35,663 nucleotides of DNA from Acidimicrobiaceae bacterium (GTDB lineage: Bacteria > Actinomycetota > Acidimicrobiia > Acidimicrobiales > MedAcidi-G1). Of the stretch, positions 4,310-35,315 are shown one piece after another (positions within the stretch are counted from its first letter, which is position 1; the number at the start of each line of letters is the position of its first letter). The DNA is taken from the NCBI GenBank assembly GCA_002717365.1, contig PBDJ01000019.1, forward strand, positions 1-35,663, written 5' to 3'. The notes below the pieces were generated by a model, which made no database searches, had not been told where the DNA came from, and was given only the letters and a program-made list of their open reading frames with translations. Position numbers and translations under genes: made by a program.

Positions 4310-5203
4310 ATGTCGACCCCAAACACAATAAGGCTCGGCTGTGCCGATTTCACATGGCCGCTTCTCCCCCACCGTGACGCCCTCAGCCTCATTCATCTCC
4401 TCGGCTTCCAAGGGGTTGATCTCGGAATGTTCTTCGAACGCTCCCATCTTCGGCCCGAGAATGTGCAAGAAGATACCTCCTACTGGGCCGGTCTTGTAAG
4501 GGAGCGACTGGACCAGGCGCAACTAGAGGTTGCTGACCTCTACTTCGCACCCTCTATGGACCTGGCTACGCGGGGTGCCAATAACCCCGACCTGGCCGAA
4601 GTCGAGGCAGGACACGAGATGTTCCTTAGCGTTCTGGATTTCGCTCGAAGGATCCAGGCTCCAGGAATAACTATGAACAGTGGGATGGACTATGGGGACG
4701 AGAGCAGAAGTCAGTCGTTGAGCCGCTCCGCCTCAGAACTTGCCAGACGCGTTGACGCCGCAGGCCAGTACGGAATCGAGATCCGGGTTGAAGGAAGCGT
4801 CGGAAGTAACACCGACAGCCCGGAGTCCCTAGGAGAGTTGATGGTAAGTACACCAGGGTTACGTGTCACCCTCGACTACTCACATTTCGTCTACCAGGGC
4901 AGGCAAGAATCCGAAGCGGATTGCCTCATCGAATACACAGGACACTTTCAATGTCGTGGCGCTGCCCCAGGAGTTATGCAAGCCCGGTATGAGGAGAATA
5001 CTATCGATTTTCCCCGTATTATTCGGGGACTCCAAGATTCCGACTATGCGGGGTATTTCTCACTTGAGTATGTATGGGTCGATATATGGGGTTGTAATCA
5101 GACTGAGAATACAATGGAAACAGTTCAATTCCGGGATCTAGCTATTGCCACACTTGAAGGGCGTGAATACACACCTGTTGTAGGACCCCAATACGATATC
5201 TAG
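4310..5203 (+). CDS. Sugar phosphate isomerase/epimerase (xylose isomerase-like TIM barrel)
   Basis: 297 residues with the alternating pattern of an AP-endonuclease-2/xylose-isomerase-like TIM barrel. Likely metal ligands lie in the expected strand ends: Glu in the GIEIRVEGS segment, Asp and His in LDYSH, and Glu in YFSLEYVW. Family members isomerise or epimerise keto-sugars, inosose derivatives and sugar phosphates. It is divergent from the Gfo/Idh/MocA gene and converges on the FGGY kinase gene. No strong ribosome binding site sits at the ATG; an AGGA is 11 bases upstream. Toward its 3' end the codons become AT-rich (5,000-5,200), like the kinase gene that follows. Confidence 0.85.
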   Translation: MSTPNTIRLGCADFTWPLLPHRDALSLIHLLGFQGVDLGMFFERSHLRPENVQEDTSYWAGLVRERLDQAQLEVADLYFAPSMDLATRGANNPDLAEVEAGHEMFLSVLDFARRIQAPGITMNSGMDYGDESRSQSLSRSASELARRVDAAGQYGIEIRVEGSVGSNTDSPESLGELMVSTPGLRVTLDYSHFVYQGRQESEADCLIEYTGHFQCRGAAPGVMQARYEENTIDFPRIIRGLQDSDYAGYFSLEYVWVDIWGCNQTENTMETVQFRDLAIATLEGREYTPVVGPQYDI

Positions 5204-5290
5204 TAGAAAACGAGGTCCCCGACAGTTGCGTTATAGTGCTTTAAGTAATGCGGCCATGAGAGTATTCTAACTGTTAGATTGTCTCTTCTA

Positions 5291-6757
5291 TCAATTTGGT
5301 ATTAGAATAGATTCATAGACAGCTTTAAATCTCTCTCGTTTATCAGCATACAACTCTGATGACTCTGCACTTGGATCAAACCGATCTCTAATCAACAACA
5401 ACCTGGTGTCAAATCCAATATCCATAGCCTCAGCTGCTATTCGTGCAGCACCGAACGCCGCAACGTCCGCACTTTCAGTCGAGGCGATAGAGACATTGAG
5501 AATATCTGCCATAATCTGCAACCATAGCTTGGATTTGGAACCTCCCCCCACAGCAATAAGTTCATCGATCCTAAACCCGTCTTTCCGCATCACGTCCTTC
5601 ATGAGGCTAATTTCGAATGCCACGCCTTCGAGAATACTACGGACAAGTTCACATCGATCAGTACCGAAAGTGAGGCCTACAATGGCACCTTTTGCATCAG
5701 GATCGTTGAAAGCTATACGAGACCCTCCAAGGTGCGGAACGAAAATCATATCTGTCGAACATTTTTTAGCGCTATCAATTATGTCCGAATAGGTTATAGA
5801 TATTTCCGAAAGTCTCTCCGAGTCGATAGTCGGATTAATAATATCTCTGAACCAACGAAGGACTGCTCCACCCGCAGGAGTGCCTGCTATAGCGATCCTT
5901 TCAGAGCGCGTCACGTGAGGAATGACTGGGATTGCCCCTGCATGCTGCTGATCTCCCTGGAATATCTCGGCCAGGACGCCTGTCGTGCCCATGGAAAGAA
6001 GACTTTTTCCACCAACATCCAATCCTGCCCCCACCGCTGCACAGGCTTGGTCAAGACCTCCGACCACAAATGTTGCATTTGGAGCTAGTCCTAGGTCAGC
6101 TGAGATATCATCACTTAGCCGTCCGATACTAGTTCCCGGAGCAACGATTTCTGGTAGTTTTGTTACCTCAATCTCCGCCGCACTAAGAATCTCGGGCGAC
6201 CAGTTTAGACTATCCAAATCAAACGCTAGAGTTCGTGCTGCCATTGAATAATCTATCAGCGGTTCAAATCCAAGGCGAACAGCAACAAGTTCTCCGTAGC
6301 AAAGAAGTTTCCACGCCTTGTTATATATCTCTGAAGACTTATTTGAAATCCACATCCACTTAAATATTGCGTAATGTGGTAGCGGTTCCAGTCCAGTTAT
6401 TCGTCGTATATGCTCCTTAGATATTCGCTGAAATAGCTGATCGGCATATATATTAGGACGTTTGTCGAAAGACACTATCGTGGGAGCCAGCGGCTTCCGA
6501 TCCTTTCCCACGGCCGTCACTGCCTCGCCCAAGACCGAGACGCATAGGGCCTCAGGAGGTTCGTTACATTCTCCAGTAACCTGCCGGATAGCTCCCTGTA
6601 AAGCCTGCCAAACATACTCGGTGTCTAGCTCGGCAGCACCAAATTCCGGGATCGATAGAGGGTACTCCTCATAAGCTCGATGGCGTATGCCCTGGTCATC
6701 AACGGCAACAACCTTACATCCGGTCGTTCCGATATCGATCCCAAGAAGACTCCCCAT
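5291..6757 (-). CDS. FGGY-family carbohydrate kinase (xylulokinase-like)
   Basis: 488 residues, normal for FGGY sugar kinases, which phosphorylate a sugar or polyol hydroxyl with ATP. The N-terminal phosphate-1 motif is DIGTTGCK (8-15), the catalytic aspartate is expected at D236 in GGLDQAC, and the C-terminal adenosine motif VGGGSKSKLW lies around residue 400. It resembles xylulokinase more than glycerol kinase, though the substrate is not determined. The gene begins 17 bases after the aldolase stop on the same strand, so kinase and aldolase form an operon in which the kinase would make the phosphorylated sugar that the aldolase cleaves. Codon use is clearly AT-richer than in the core genes beyond 13 kb, suggesting transfer from another source. 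Confidence 0.9.
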   Translation of the reverse strand: MGSLLGIDIGTTGCKVVAVDDQGIRHRAYEEYPLSIPEFGAAELDTEYVWQALQGAIRQVTGECNEPPEALCVSVLGEAVTAVGKDRKPLAPTIVSFDKRPNIYADQLFQRISKEHIRRITGLEPLPHYAIFKWMWISNKSSEIYNKAWKLLCYGELVAVRLGFEPLIDYSMAARTLAFDLDSLNWSPEILSAAEIEVTKLPEIVAPGTSIGRLSDDISADLGLAPNATFVVGGLDQACAAVGAGLDVGGKSLLSMGTTGVLAEIFQGDQQHAGAIPVIPHVTRSERIAIAGTPAGGAVLRWFRDIINPTIDSERLSEISITYSDIIDSAKKCSTDMIFVPHLGGSRIAFNDPDAKGAIVGLTFGTDRCELVRSILEGVAFEISLMKDVMRKDGFRIDELIAVGGGSKSKLWLQIMADILNVSIASTESADVAAFGAARIAAEAMDIGFDTRLLLIRDRFDPSAESSELYADKRERFKAVYESILIPN

Positions 6758-31772: not shown

Positions 31773-32204
31773 GTGACGAATCTCTCAGGTGACCGCGGCT
31801 CAGATTGGCCGGATTTCAAACCAGTCAACCAGATAAGCAAGACTCGGCTGGTGGTTGCAGACGTCGGGTCCGCTGGCTTGTCAGATGGCCTGGTGGCCAT
31901 CGTCAAGGCAGGTTGTCCGGCTTGCGCTCTAGTCGCGCCGGTGCTTGCCGACCTGTCCGAACGGGCCGGGTTGACCGCCTACACCCAGGACGATCCGACC
32001 TTCCCGGCGGTGGCCGACTGGGTTGTGGACGACACCGATCTGGCCATCAGTTGGCACCTGGACCTGGAGGCTGTGCCCACCCTGTTGCGAATCGAGGCCG
32101 GTCAGGAGGTCGAGCGGACAACGGGATGGGACCGAAACCGGTGGGAGCAGCTGGCAGGGGTGACCGACCTTGGACCCGACCTACCGGCCTTCAAGCCCGG
32201 CTGA
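31773..32204 (+). CDS. Thioredoxin-fold protein with CPAC active site
   Basis: 143 residues from a GTG at 31,773. The segment AGCPACALVAPVLADL carries the redox pair Cys48 and Cys51, and VPTLL supplies the cis-proline loop around residue 101. It lacks a signal peptide, so acts in the cytoplasm. It is the first gene of an apparent three-gene operon, six bases before the next gene, ending with the UGSC selenoprotein. A thioredoxin-like partner beside a selenocysteine protein suggests it reduces or exchanges disulfide/selenosulfide bonds with it. Its stop is TGA in the same frame as the following gene. Confidence 0.85.
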   Translation: MTNLSGDRGSDWPDFKPVNQISKTRLVVADVGSAGLSDGLVAIVKAGCPACALVAPVLADLSERAGLTAYTQDDPTFPAVADWVVDDTDLAISWHLDLEAVPTLLRIEAGQEVERTTGWDRNRWEQLAGVTDLGPDLPAFKPG

Positions 32205-32210
32205 GGGTCC

Positions 32211-33302
32211 CTGACAGTTGATCCCGGGCGGATCGACGAACTCCGGATCCGGTTCAGCAATACCGGCCTAGCCTCCCGTCGGGTTGAACTGGGATCAGAC
32301 GAGGACGACGCCGAGGCCCTCTTCGACCGAGGGTGGACCGACGGGCTGCCTGTTGTTCCCCCAACCGAAGCCCGGGTGGCTCGCATGCTGGACGGAACGA
32401 CTCGGGCAGCCGACGAGGTGGTGGCGGTCGTGCCCCCTGCCCTCGTCGAATGCACGGTGGAGAAGGTGGCCGTGAACGCCGTGATGGCCGGCTGCCGGCC
32501 CGAATATCTCCCGGTGGTGTTGGCCGCTCTGGAGGCCGTCTGTACCGACGAGTTCAACATGCACGGAATTCTCGCCACCACGATGGGAGTCGGACCCGTC
32601 CTGGTGGTCAACGGCCCGGTGGCATCACGAATCGGAATGAATAGCGGTGTGAATGCCCTCGGCCAGGGGAACCGAGCCAATGTCACCATCGGGCGAGCTG
32701 TCCAGTTGGTGGTCCGCAACGTCGGCGGGGGGGCTCCCGGTGGCATCGACCGGGCCACCCACGGCAGCATGGCCAAGTTGGGGTTCTGCTTTGCCGAGGA
32801 CGAGGCGGGCAGTCCGTGGACCACCTTGTCTGAGGATCGTGGCTTCGACCGGTCCCAGGACGTGGTGACGGCCTTCTGCGGCGAGGGGCCCCGGATCCTG
32901 GTCGACCAGAAGAGTCGATCGGCCGATTCTCTGGTTCGGGCACTGGCCGAGGGCCTGCGATCCAGCGTCTCGCCCCGGGTGATGATGGGTATGGATGTGA
33001 TGCTGGTGCTCTCCCCGGAACACATGTCCCGGTTCCGAGATGCCGGCTGGGACCGAAACCGGTTCATGGCCGAGTTGTCCGGTCATCTGACGGTCAACGT
33101 CGACGACGTCCTGGCTGGAGCAGGCGGGATCGAAGAAGGGCTTCCCGAGGGATTCGCCGGCATGGCCCTCCCCAAGTTTCGTCCGGGTGGGCTGCTGGTC
33201 GTCCACGCAGGTGGTCCGGCCGGCTTGTTCTCAGCCATTGTGGGAGGATGGCTGAACGGCCCGATGGGCAGCGAGCCGACGAGCAGGGAGATCACGCCGT
33301 GA
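32211..33302 (+). CDS. Protein of UGSC-linked family, conserved DGLPVVPPTE N-terminus
   Basis: About 363 residues if it starts at CTG 32,211. No ATG, GTG or TTG is in frame between the previous stop (32,202-32,204) and GTG 32,376, but the conserved-looking stretch FDRGWTDGLPVVPPTEARV lies before 32,376 and must be coding. CTG 32,211 has GAGGG just upstream. Later segments are rich in glycine and methionine (MNSGVNALGQGNRANVTIGRAV, GVGPVLVVNGPV). I do not know the biochemical function; it resembles proteins that accompany UGSC proteins. The stop overlaps the UGSC gene start by four bases (GTGA), so the two are co-translated and probably form a complex or pathway. Confidence 0.75.
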   Translation: MTVDPGRIDELRIRFSNTGLASRRVELGSDEDDAEALFDRGWTDGLPVVPPTEARVARMLDGTTRAADEVVAVVPPALVECTVEKVAVNAVMAGCRPEYLPVVLAALEAVCTDEFNMHGILATTMGVGPVLVVNGPVASRIGMNSGVNALGQGNRANVTIGRAVQLVVRNVGGGAPGGIDRATHGSMAKLGFCFAEDEAGSPWTTLSEDRGFDRSQDVVTAFCGEGPRILVDQKSRSADSLVRALAEGLRSSVSPRVMMGMDVMLVLSPEHMSRFRDAGWDRNRFMAELSGHLTVNVDDVLAGAGGIEEGLPEGFAGMALPKFRPGGLLVVHAGGPAGLFSAIVGGWLNGPMGSEPTSREITP

Positions 33303-33823
33303 GCCAGCCGACCGTCGTCCTGGACCCGACCGCCGGTACGACCCCGTCGGATCGGACCCGTAACCACCGTCCTCCCTCCCTGGTTGGTGTGACGGTGGGC
33401 CTGTTGGACATCAACAAGCCACGGGGCGATGTTTTTCTAGATCGGGTGGCCGAGCGGTTGGGCGAACAGGGCGCCACCGTTCTGCGCTACACCAAGCCAA
33501 CGTTCACCAAGCCGGCCCCAGTCGACCTGCGCCACGAGATCGCCACCCAGTGTGCGGCGGTCATTGAAGCCCTCGCCGATTGAGGATCCTGCACGACGTG
33601 CAGTGTGCACGACATCGATGATCTGGAACGCCGTGGCCTGGCCGGTGTGGTGGTGGCCTCCGAACCATTTGCCGAAGCCGCCGAGGCTCAGGCCCGGGCG
33701 CTTGGGTTAGATGTGGCCCGCGTGTTCACACCACACCCCATCCAAGACCGGACCGACCAGGAGATGCAGGACCTGGCCGACGACGCCGTCGAGGCGCTGG
33801 TTTCAGCTCTGACGTCAGCCTGA
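33299..33823 (+). CDS. UGSC-family selenoprotein (in-frame TGA read as selenocysteine)
   Basis: Starting at GTG 33,299, the frame runs to TGA at 33,581-33,583 and then continues unbroken in the same frame to TGA 33,821-33,823. Reading the first TGA as selenocysteine gives a 174-residue protein with Sec95 in U-G-S-C-T-T-C (Cys98, Cys101), exactly the UGSC motif that names a known selenoprotein family. Flanking parts also fit one domain: VGLLDINKPRGDVFLDRVAERL before and DLERRGLAGVVVASEPFAEAA after, an alternating alpha/beta pattern. Hairpins suited to a bacterial SECIS follow the TGA. The gene overlaps the previous one (GTGA) and is last in an operon with a thioredoxin-like gene. The function is unknown, likely thiol/selenol redox. 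Gene callers would split it in two. Confidence 0.88.
33584..33611 (+). promoter_or_regulatory. Candidate bacterial SECIS element
   Basis: Right after the TGA two alternative 6-base-pair hairpins exist: CTGCAC-GAC-GTGCAG (33,589-33,603) and CGTGCA-GTG-TGCACG (33,597-33,611). In the second the apical loop starts with G, 20 bases after the TGA, within the range known for bacterial SECIS elements recognised by SelB. Both lie in coding sequence, as bacterial SECIS must. Confidence 0.6.
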
Positions 33824-33848: not shown

Positions 33849-34745
33849 TCAGGTCCCCGATTCCCACCCGGGAAGCGCATAGCCGCTGGCGCAGGACACT
33901 ACGAGGCCGTCGGCCATCAGCGTTTCGACGACCCGGCGAGCCCGGCGAGTGTCTCCCGGCCAGCCCATGGCCTCGGCCAGCCTCCCATCGGCCACTGGGC
34001 CCACACCCAGGGAGGCCACCAACCGGCCTCGGCCCTGGCGATCTGAACCCTCAAACGGGGTCTGGCCACCTGACACCCCGGCGGAGCCACGAGCCGGATC
34101 GGAACCTTCGCCTCGCCAGACGCACCGGTCGGCCAGCGGGCAGTGTTCGCAATCTGGAATCCGTGCCGTGCAGGTCAGAGCGCCTAGGTCCAGCAGGGTC
34201 TGGTTCCATGACCAAACCTGCCCCGCGGGGACCGATTGGTCGGCCAGATCCTGGGCCGCTCGAGCCGTGAGGCACCGGCCGGTCCACCGGGCCAAGATCC
34301 GGGCCACGTTGGTGTCCACCACGGCTGCTTCGGCCTCGTGGGCGAAGGCCCGGATGGCCCGCGCCGTGTAGGGACCGATCCCCGGGAGGGCCTCCAGATC
34401 AGTCCGTTCGGTCGGAATCCGGCCGCTGTGTAGAGCCATCACGACTCCGGCTGCCCTGTGGAGGTGAACGGCCCGCCGGTTGTAGCCGAGTCCCGACCAC
34501 TCGGCGATCACCTCGGCCGGCGAGGCAGAGGCACAGGAGGCCACGTCCGGGAACCGGGCCAAGAAGCGGGGCCACCGTTCCGTCACCCGGTCTGCCCGGG
34601 TTTGCTGGAGCATCACCTCGGCCACCAGGACCGCCCACGGGTCGCGAGTGTTGCGCCACGGCAGGTCCCGGCGATTCCGACGTCCCCAGTGGAGGAGCTC
34701 GGCAGGCAACGTCTGCTGACCGATGGTCGTGTCCAAGGCTGGCAC
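33849..34745 (-). CDS. mutY: A/G-specific adenine glycosylase
   Basis: 298 residues. The helix-hairpin-helix LPGIGPYTARAI (120-131), catalytic Glu43 in EVMLQQT, Asp144 in VVDTNVARI and the 4Fe-4S cysteines 192, 199, 202 and 208 (C-x6-C-x2-C-x5-C) are all present. The enzyme removes adenine mispaired with 8-oxoguanine. The C-terminal NUDIX-like 8-oxoG recognition domain of longer MutY is absent; instead there is a short wing-like region (LAEAMGWPGDTRRARRVVETLMADGLV). The start is GTG 34,745; TACGGT seven bases upstream could be a leaderless -10 box, and AGGAG directly abuts the GTG. Convergent with the selenoprotein gene. Confidence 0.93.
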   Translation of the reverse strand: MPALDTTIGQQTLPAELLHWGRRNRRDLPWRNTRDPWAVLVAEVMLQQTRADRVTERWPRFLARFPDVASCASASPAEVIAEWSGLGYNRRAVHLHRAAGVVMALHSGRIPTERTDLEALPGIGPYTARAIRAFAHEAEAAVVDTNVARILARWTGRCLTARAAQDLADQSVPAGQVWSWNQTLLDLGALTCTARIPDCEHCPLADRCVWRGEGSDPARGSAGVSGGQTPFEGSDRQGRGRLVASLGVGPVADGRLAEAMGWPGDTRRARRVVETLMADGLVVSCASGYALPGWESGT

Positions 34746-34758: not shown

Positions 34759-34809
34759 GCGGCTACCTCTGGGAGCCCCGTCGTCCCGCCGGTTCGCTCA
34801 GCTCCGCGC

Positions 34810-34815
34810 TAGCGT
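34810..34815 (+). promoter_or_regulatory. -10 box for leaderless transcript of the thioredoxin-like gene
   Basis: TAGCGT is followed by eight bases and GTG 34,824; no Shine-Dalgarno sequence. It decides the start of that gene, which could otherwise be read far upstream inside mutY. Confidence 0.45.
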
Positions 34816-34823
34816 CGGCGCCC

Positions 34824-35315
34824 GTGGCCAACGCACCGGACCTCTCCATCCAGTTGCAGGCGGTAGGAGACGAGCCTCGCCACCTGTCGGAGTTACTGAC
34901 CACTTTTCCGTTGGCTGCCGTGGTCGTGGACCCGTTCACCCACGAAAGTTCGTGGCTGTTGGACACTGCCCGACGCATCCTGGCTGTGTTTCGAGAAGCC
35001 GACGTGCGGGTGGCCTTTGTCGTGGCCGGAACCGACGGCAACGGCGCGGCCCGTTTCCTCGGACCGCTCACCGACGAGATTCTGACTCTGGCTGACCCTG
35101 ACCGGTCTCTGGCCCGCTCCATGGATCTTGGGACTCTTCCCGCCTTCGTGGCTATCCGCCAGGACGGTTCGGTCATCGGTTCCGCCGAAGGTTGGGATCC
35201 GCTCGCCTGGCGTGAGGCGGCAACCAGCCTGGCTGATATGACCCGATGGTCGCGTCCGGAGATCCCGGCCGCTGGCGACCCGGCTCCCTACGCCGGGACG
35301 GCGGCGCTGGGCTGA
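34824..35315 (+). CDS. Thioredoxin-like fold protein without active-site cysteines
   Basis: 163 residues from GTG 34,824. The alternating pattern LAAVVVDPFTHESSWLLDTARRIL, VRVAFVVAGTDG, then LGTLPAFVAIRQDGSVIGSAEGWDP reads as a thioredoxin fold with the cis-proline in TLPAF, but the place of the CxxC holds HESSW, with no cysteine. It is probably a binding or structural relative rather than an oxidoreductase. Similar hypothetical proteins are common in actinobacteria. It is divergent from mutY and 46 bases before the dehydrogenase gene on the same strand, perhaps co-transcribed. Confidence 0.78.
   Translation: MANAPDLSIQLQAVGDEPRHLSELLTTFPLAAVVVDPFTHESSWLLDTARRILAVFREADVRVAFVVAGTDGNGAARFLGPLTDEILTLADPDRSLARSMDLGTLPAFVAIRQDGSVIGSAEGWDPLAWREAATSLADMTRWSRPEIPAAGDPAPYAGTAALG

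Follow-up and report, generated by a model that had tools for sequence, protein, structure and literature searches.

An actinobacterial contig carries what is most probably a two-gene selenoprotein operon. The first gene encodes a thioredoxin domain joined through a selenocysteine (Sec, U; Sec144) to a partner domain, the second encodes a UGSC selenoprotein related to GrdB and PrdB, and the two products would relay electrons to a substrate. The window analysed here is an entire contig of 35,663 nucleotides (PBDJ01000019.1) from the draft genome of an Acidimicrobiaceae bacterium (GCA_002717365.1; 45 contigs, 77.8% complete). The evidence, which comes from sequence comparison, comprises two conserved UGA codons, Sec/Cys exchange at the first of these (site 1), coding selection, a hairpin, the operon arrangement, the Sec machinery, and the likeness of UGSC to GrdB and PrdB; taken as a pair, the genes look like a selenium-dependent reductase. 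The features of the operon are the following.

31773..33302, + strand: second selenoprotein (gene 1), thioredoxin, Sec and unnamed domain, 509 amino acids, with TGA read-through; exact start uncertain
31863..32162, + strand: thioredoxin-fold domain, residues 31-130, with the CPAC motif at 31914-31925
32202..32204, + strand: in-frame TGA predicted to encode Sec144 in K-P-G-U-G-S (site 1), from codon comparison of 75 loci and the window
32205..33302, + strand: unnamed partner domain, which elsewhere adjoins, or is fused to, UGSC proteins
32217..32237, + strand: bSECIS-like hairpin of site 1, GUUGAUCC-CGGGC-GGAUCGAC, 8 bp, 5-nt loop
33299..33823, + strand: UGSC selenoprotein gene (gene 2), 174 amino acids, GTG start, TGA stop at 33821-33823
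33581..33583, + strand: in-frame TGA predicted to encode Sec95 in U-G-S-C-T-T-C (site 2), TGA in 79 of 79 sequences (78 loci and the window)
33597..33611, + strand: bSECIS-like hairpin of the UGSC gene, 6 bp, 3-nt loop

The UGSC gene

The initial annotation started from two ORFs, 33299-33583 and from 33584 onward, that lie in the same frame with only a TGA between them, an arrangement that is directly visible in the sequence. It read this TGA as Sec, within the motif UGSCTTC, and assigned the product to the UGSC family, and both proposals were borne out. Translated in this manner (...ALADUGSCTTCSVHD...), the joined protein matches PF24696 (2e-41) and the NCBIfam model UGSC_fam (NF041046; 1.1e-43, 148.7 bits against a cut-off of 125) with scores that pass both curated cut-offs. 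The UGSC model match spans residues 30-172, running across the TGA, and the U/C-G-S-C motif sits inside one continuous domain. Thus, ORF 33299-33823 encodes a UGSC-family selenoprotein, with predicted Sec insertion. Its GTG start at 33299 overlaps the stop codon of the upstream gene (GTGA).

In a class-wide scan, UGSC matches were detected in 105 of the 296 genomes; of the 86 that are listed above the cut-off, 84 have a single TGA and 2 lack one. The suggested search for Cys at the TGA position in relatives came out differently from what had been envisaged: all 78 related loci examined have TGA, and Cys appears at the Sec site in more distant UGSC proteins. The UGSC family was in print by 2008 (PMC2398784) and is among the five largest selenoprotein families reported from the GOS metagenomes, so that the gene alone adds a new member to a known family; the parts of the selenoprotein literature considered here assign no function to it. 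The expectation that ordinary annotation would yield two truncated hypothetical proteins holds for one deposited plasmid, although the family is already represented in Pfam and NCBIfam. The plasmid is pFER4 of Paracoccus ferrooxidans (L139:7459-8028); its record breaks a UGSC relative (87.6 bits, below the cut-off) at the in-frame TGA into two hypothetical proteins, and selB is found about 4 kb downstream.

The source genome also contains a second UGSC and partner pair, located on the minus strand of contig C31 (L096, G000:C31:61000-69039; UGSC at 4969-5415 and the partner paralogue at 5712-6509 of L096). This UGSC paralogue again has a TGA, in the motif UGSCTSW, and the partner beside it shows no thioredoxin match. 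A conserved protein without an NCBIfam family (34779-35315, + strand in the window) directly follows UGSC in several relatives; in the window, mutY (33849-34745, minus strand) lies between the two.

UGSC as a probable distant relative of the GrdB/PrdB selenocysteine domain

The AlphaFold model of UGSC is confident (pLDDT 90.7); in it, five strands and five helices alternate, in agreement with the single continuous alpha/beta domain proposed in the initial annotation, with Sec95 immediately before the third helix. In structure searches, the matches were generic proteins of the doubly wound alpha/beta type (the best with Z 11.7, rmsd 3.2, and 132 residues), which define a fold class, not a family. 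A thioredoxin-like fold has been suggested for UGSC in print; the model is instead doubly wound alpha/beta, and comparison of UGSC with the thioredoxin-domain profile gave a probability of 1.1%. Thioredoxins are absent among the 50 structure matches listed for UGSC, an observation that alone excludes nothing. At the sequence level, the best PDB relative of UGSC has an E-value of only 0.34, and a weak Pfam match to DUF116 (E 0.061) recurs in 18 of 44 UGSC members.

A diverse UGSC alignment compared with the Sec domain of GrdB and PrdB, the sequences of which were taken read through their TGA, matched with a probability of 96.2% (score 65), Sec aligned on Sec; in separate tests, the UGSC profile reached 86.3% with GrdB and 85.3% with PrdB. 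First, smaller GrdB/PrdB alignments had given low probabilities (1.3, 0.1, and 17.9%). Because motif patterns had been used to select both the UGSC and the GrdB/PrdB sequences, a choice biased toward the motif, the comparison was repeated with the motif masked, and the probability was 93.1%, against 0.7% for the reversed alignment and 3.6% for the best of 30 column shuffles. Among 20 control families, 19 valid ones reached at most 12.4%, although several of these resemble ORFs in the wrong frame and the set is poor in doubly wound proteins; the remaining family scored 99.6% and is no control because one of its members ends in the N-terminal half of UGSC itself. The aligned features are in register, namely, a hydrophobic strand, U-G-[ST]-x-T-x-C, 'E..GIP', and 'HP'. 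On this evidence, UGSC appears to be a stand-alone distant relative of the C-terminal Sec domain of GrdB and PrdB.

The families listed for 44 UGSC proteins do not include PF07355, the Pfam model of GrdB, which in the genomes examined ends just before the Sec, as if proteins truncated at this residue had been used to build it. This early end, together with the failure of the model to detect UGSC, may explain why passages of PMC2398784, PMC13188914, and PMC9312934 do not connect UGSC with GrdB. At the level of titles and abstract openings, the literature surveyed describes neither such a link nor a thioredoxin-partner selenoprotein. Actinobacterial GrdB/PrdB-like genes of the UGTxTRC and UPxCHxSVG types (L141-L148, L154-L164, and L170-L172) continue through a TGA immediately after the PF07355 match.

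Operon context and possible function

The order thioredoxin-partner-UGSC is found in 75 of the 78 loci; the other three have no thioredoxin match, two of them lying at contig ends (L028, L077) and one having simply no such match (L043). A search of 72,556 plasmid records detected the partner domain in 24 and UGSC in 6, all within those 24. An Arthrobacter plasmid carries trxB-trxA-partner-UGSC, and a Roseovarius plasmid carries partner-UGSC-trxB (UGSC_fam 151.3 bits); in Variovorax sp. SRS16, trxB lies upstream of the partner and a Cys-containing UGSC relative (76.5 bits, below the cut-off). In four of the twelve plasmid regions examined, one of which lacks annotation, genes for CoA transferases, a CoA ester lyase, and TRAP or tricarboxylate transporters are located nearby, which hints at organic-acid catabolism. 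On a Sporomusa termitida plasmid (L136:7281-9005), a UGSC-like domain is fused to the partner, with aconitase X nearby. In this fusion, Met-Gly-Thr-Ser replaces the redox motif U-G-S-C, so some relatives may not perform the chemistry proposed below. The partner domain was also considered as a candidate GrdE, and it showed no similarity (probability 0.85%) to the ORF upstream of GrdB, which we take to be GrdE.

In the proposed relay, thioredoxin reductase would charge the CPAC dithiol of the thioredoxin domain, this dithiol would reduce Sec144, and Sec144 would in turn reduce the Sec95-Cys98(-Cys101) centre of UGSC. The latter would then reduce a small organic substrate that the partner domain helps to hold; this step could be nucleophilic or reductive if the analogy with glycine and proline reductase holds. 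A less probable reading, although one that deserves serious consideration, sees the operon as a pair for general thiol repair or antioxidant defence in place of a catabolic reductase, with UGSC acting as a peroxide- or disulfide-reducing partner of thioredoxin. Such a role fits the thioredoxin fusion, and uncharacterized selenoproteins with motifs of this kind are mostly thought to be redox-functional (PMC13188914); however, the UGSC model is not thioredoxin-like, UGSC aligns with the GrdB/PrdB domain, and the CoA-metabolism and transporter genes in four of the plasmid regions hint at catabolism of organic acids.

A predicted second selenoprotein combining thioredoxin, Sec, and a partner domain

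The initial annotation saw the TGA of the UGSC gene but overlooked the second recoded TGA in the same operon, at 32202-32204. The frame upstream of UGSC has GTG 32376 as its first start codon but is conserved well before this position, and it runs across the TGA into a thioredoxin-like ORF (31773-32204); the profile match of the fused protein begins at 31848. In the 75 loci and the window, with L011, L028, L043, and L077 left out due to truncated partners, the codon at site 1 is TGA in 35, TGC in 29, and TGT in 12, that is, TGA or a Cys codon in 76 of 76; some of the loci are near-copies (L044 and L076 are identical), so these are counts of loci and not of independent events. Divergent fused proteins elsewhere in the phylum (L118, L119, L120, and L122) also have Cys at this site. 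Over the 57 codons 3' of the TGA, compared among the 26 of the 35 Sec loci that contain 365 codons and no N, mean pN is 0.195 and mean pS is 0.655, with pN below pS in 324 of 325 pairs in frame; in each of the two wrong frames, this holds for very few of the 325 pairs (5 and 2). From the codon counts and the in-frame pN/pS pattern, we infer that the region 3' of the TGA is translated in frame with thioredoxin. Accordingly, comparative sequence evidence identifies residue 144 as Cys or Sec, with the TGA joining thioredoxin and partner into one predicted protein.

A genuine stop at the upstream TGA, ending a small thioredoxin that would be followed by a separate partner starting further downstream, is highly unlikely. 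There are indeed separate thioredoxin and partner genes elsewhere (trxA followed by the partner in Arthrobacter), the partner paralogue on contig C31 of the same genome has no thioredoxin match, and a start codon is available at GTG 32376 in the window and earlier in many relatives, in some at codon 2. Against this, the window has no ATG, GTG, or TTG among the first 57 codons 3' of the TGA, a segment that is nonetheless conserved and subject to purifying selection; furthermore, in 41 of the 76 sequences a Cys codon takes the place of the TGA within a single long ORF, and a hairpin accompanies the TGA at site 1.

Under the read-through reading, then, gene 1 encodes a single protein with a thioredoxin fold and CxxC that nonetheless scores below the curated Pfam and NCBIfam thioredoxin cut-offs. 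The thioredoxin domain matches a PDB thioredoxin sequence with E 2e-5 and several thioredoxin structures with Z of about 9 and rmsd of 2-3; the model of the fused protein has an overall pLDDT of 78.3, with moderate confidence outside the thioredoxin domain. The two alignments used, A1 and A2, include 41 and 43 of the 48 named loci, with the window added to each; Cys48, Cys51, residue 144, and Cys241 do not vary in any of 42 aligned sequences (Sec written as C). No Pfam or NCBIfam family covers the fused protein, for which just weak, sub-cut-off thioredoxin-type matches were obtained. The fold of the partner domain was not recognized in the structure search, where all matches are weak and the first is 7xky, a fumarate hydratase (E 3.1e-3, probability 0.51), and a comparison of this domain with phages produced no match. 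Mechanical ORF calling splits gene 1 into a thioredoxin and a fragment, and the libraries searched hold no name for it.

Putative recoding hairpins and a probable switch from Cys to Sec

Bacterial Sec insertion calls for a stem-loop just 3' of the UGA with a G in the apical loop. Site 1 has such a structure, an 8-bp stem with the loop CGGGC, which in most TGA loci occupies nucleotides 16-36 counted after the U of UGA; covariation is weak. The mean energy of the hairpin is -10.2 kcal/mol (-13.6 to -4.7) in the 35 Sec loci, and that of the same segment in the 41 Cys loci is -3.1 kcal/mol (-8.1 to 0), with overlapping distributions: five Sec loci lie at -4.8 or -4.7 and ten Cys loci at -5.7 or lower. 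The two loop-proximal stem pairs form in 35 of 35 Sec loci against 10 and 7 of the 41 Cys loci, and the sixth pair (28/35 Sec, 33/41 Cys) does not separate the groups. Pairs were counted in 32 of the 35 Sec loci, leaving out two with N and one identical copy; the covariation rests on one pair (U-A in 14, C-G in 10), double-change pairs are no more numerous than in shuffles (432 of 500 reach the observed number), and two of the stem pairs are broken in 5 and 7 of the 32 sequences.

Relative to its composition, the short site 1 hairpin stands out in the window (z -2.75), whereas folding over 48 nt is unremarkable at both sites (z -0.07 for site 1, -0.08 for site 2). The hairpin of the UGSC site, around GUGCAGUGUGCAC, recurs across loci, with z of just -0.81 in the window. 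The loop of site 1 encodes Gly-Arg in 34 of the 35 Sec loci and in none of the 41 Cys loci; this matches the prediction of an RNA constraint, but the dipeptide may instead be a clade mark retained by common descent.

In a tree of the 76 fused proteins, rooted by midpoint only, the 35 Sec rows form one side of a branch with support of 100/99, and a single change suffices to explain the Sec/Cys label. The Cys rows come from Gammaproteobacteria, Pseudonocardia, and unnamed families of the same class. Because the rows adjoining the Sec clade are Cys, the simplest reading of the tree is a single gain of Sec from Cys at site 1, which is also the probable course of events. Gene 1 thus allows one Cys/Sec switch to be followed along with the rise of a recoding hairpin.

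Selenocysteine machinery of the source genome

The initial annotation forecast that selA, selB, selC, and selD would be encoded elsewhere in this lineage, and all four components were found in the same draft genome. Profile searches detected SelA (387.6 bits, cut-off 267.9), SelB (288.1 bits, cut-off 242.25), the gene of which adjoins selA, SelD (357.5 bits), and a tRNA-Sec with the anticodon TCA (67.5 bits, threshold 47); a second match to the tRNA-Sec model, on contig C31, is barely above the gathering score (48.6 bits). The selD gene (L017, G000:C45, minus strand) belongs to the selenoprotein genes as well, its in-frame TGA falling in the motif GAGUGCK. Given the draft state of the genome, one could suspect sequencing errors, pseudogenes, or a different genetic code behind the in-frame TGAs, but this is exceedingly improbable because the same TGAs recur across dozens of other assemblies, TGA also terminates both genes in the window, and the full Sec gene set is present. 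The host is probably a marine actinobacterium, because a relative whose fused protein is 95% identical to that of the window (L048) is an Acidimicrobiales MAG labelled ALOHA.

Comparison with known systems

Gene 1 shares with thioredoxin the fold and the C-P-x-C motif and differs in being extended C-terminally by K-P-G-(U/C)-G-S and a 365-residue domain. Its Sec lies outside CxxC, unlike that of the Sec thioredoxins in the table of PMC13188914, which are UxxC. The VPGUxxT family in the same table (NF041383) is likewise thioredoxin-like with a P-G-U motif; as a candidate identity for gene 1 it was rejected, given that NF041383 does not match the fused protein and that its only match in the source genome, on contig C40, scores 25 bits against a cut-off of 275. 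Table 1 of this 2026 inventory comprises 119 selenoprotein families, UGSC included, and a thioredoxin-PGU-partner entry was not found in it. Like the partner in Sporomusa, the domain Unknown_1 of PMC2398784 is fused to UGSC, and so, by frame and spacing, is the partner in a further genome (G076, L103). The partner may be the same as, or distinct from, Unknown_1 and the hypothetical protein GOS_A of that paper. The thioredoxin-partner protein apparently is an uncatalogued selenoprotein paired with the known UGSC.

The UGSC protein of the window resembles the published family (NF041046/PF24696; PMC2398784) in sequence, motif, and Sec codon; what sets it apart is that its upstream neighbour is a selenoprotein gene as well. 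It also has a third Cys in U-G-S-C-T-T-C, a residue replaced in the motif of the C31 paralogue. The link to GrdB/PrdB and the thioredoxin-Sec operon partner make UGSC a testable reductase hypothesis. More tentatively, with chances that we put slightly below even, the uncatalogued thioredoxin-PGU-partner protein and UGSC could together form a compact counterpart of glycine and proline reductase, built from thioredoxin, a Sec that relays electrons, and a Sec domain of the GrdB type; in one actinobacterial clade, the relay Cys would then have given way to Sec once, with a new SECIS hairpin that also imposed Gly-Arg on the protein. Thioredoxin participates in glycine reduction, and the UxxCxxC motif of GrdB (PMC13188914) parallels UGSCTTC, while UGSC dispenses with most of GrdB.
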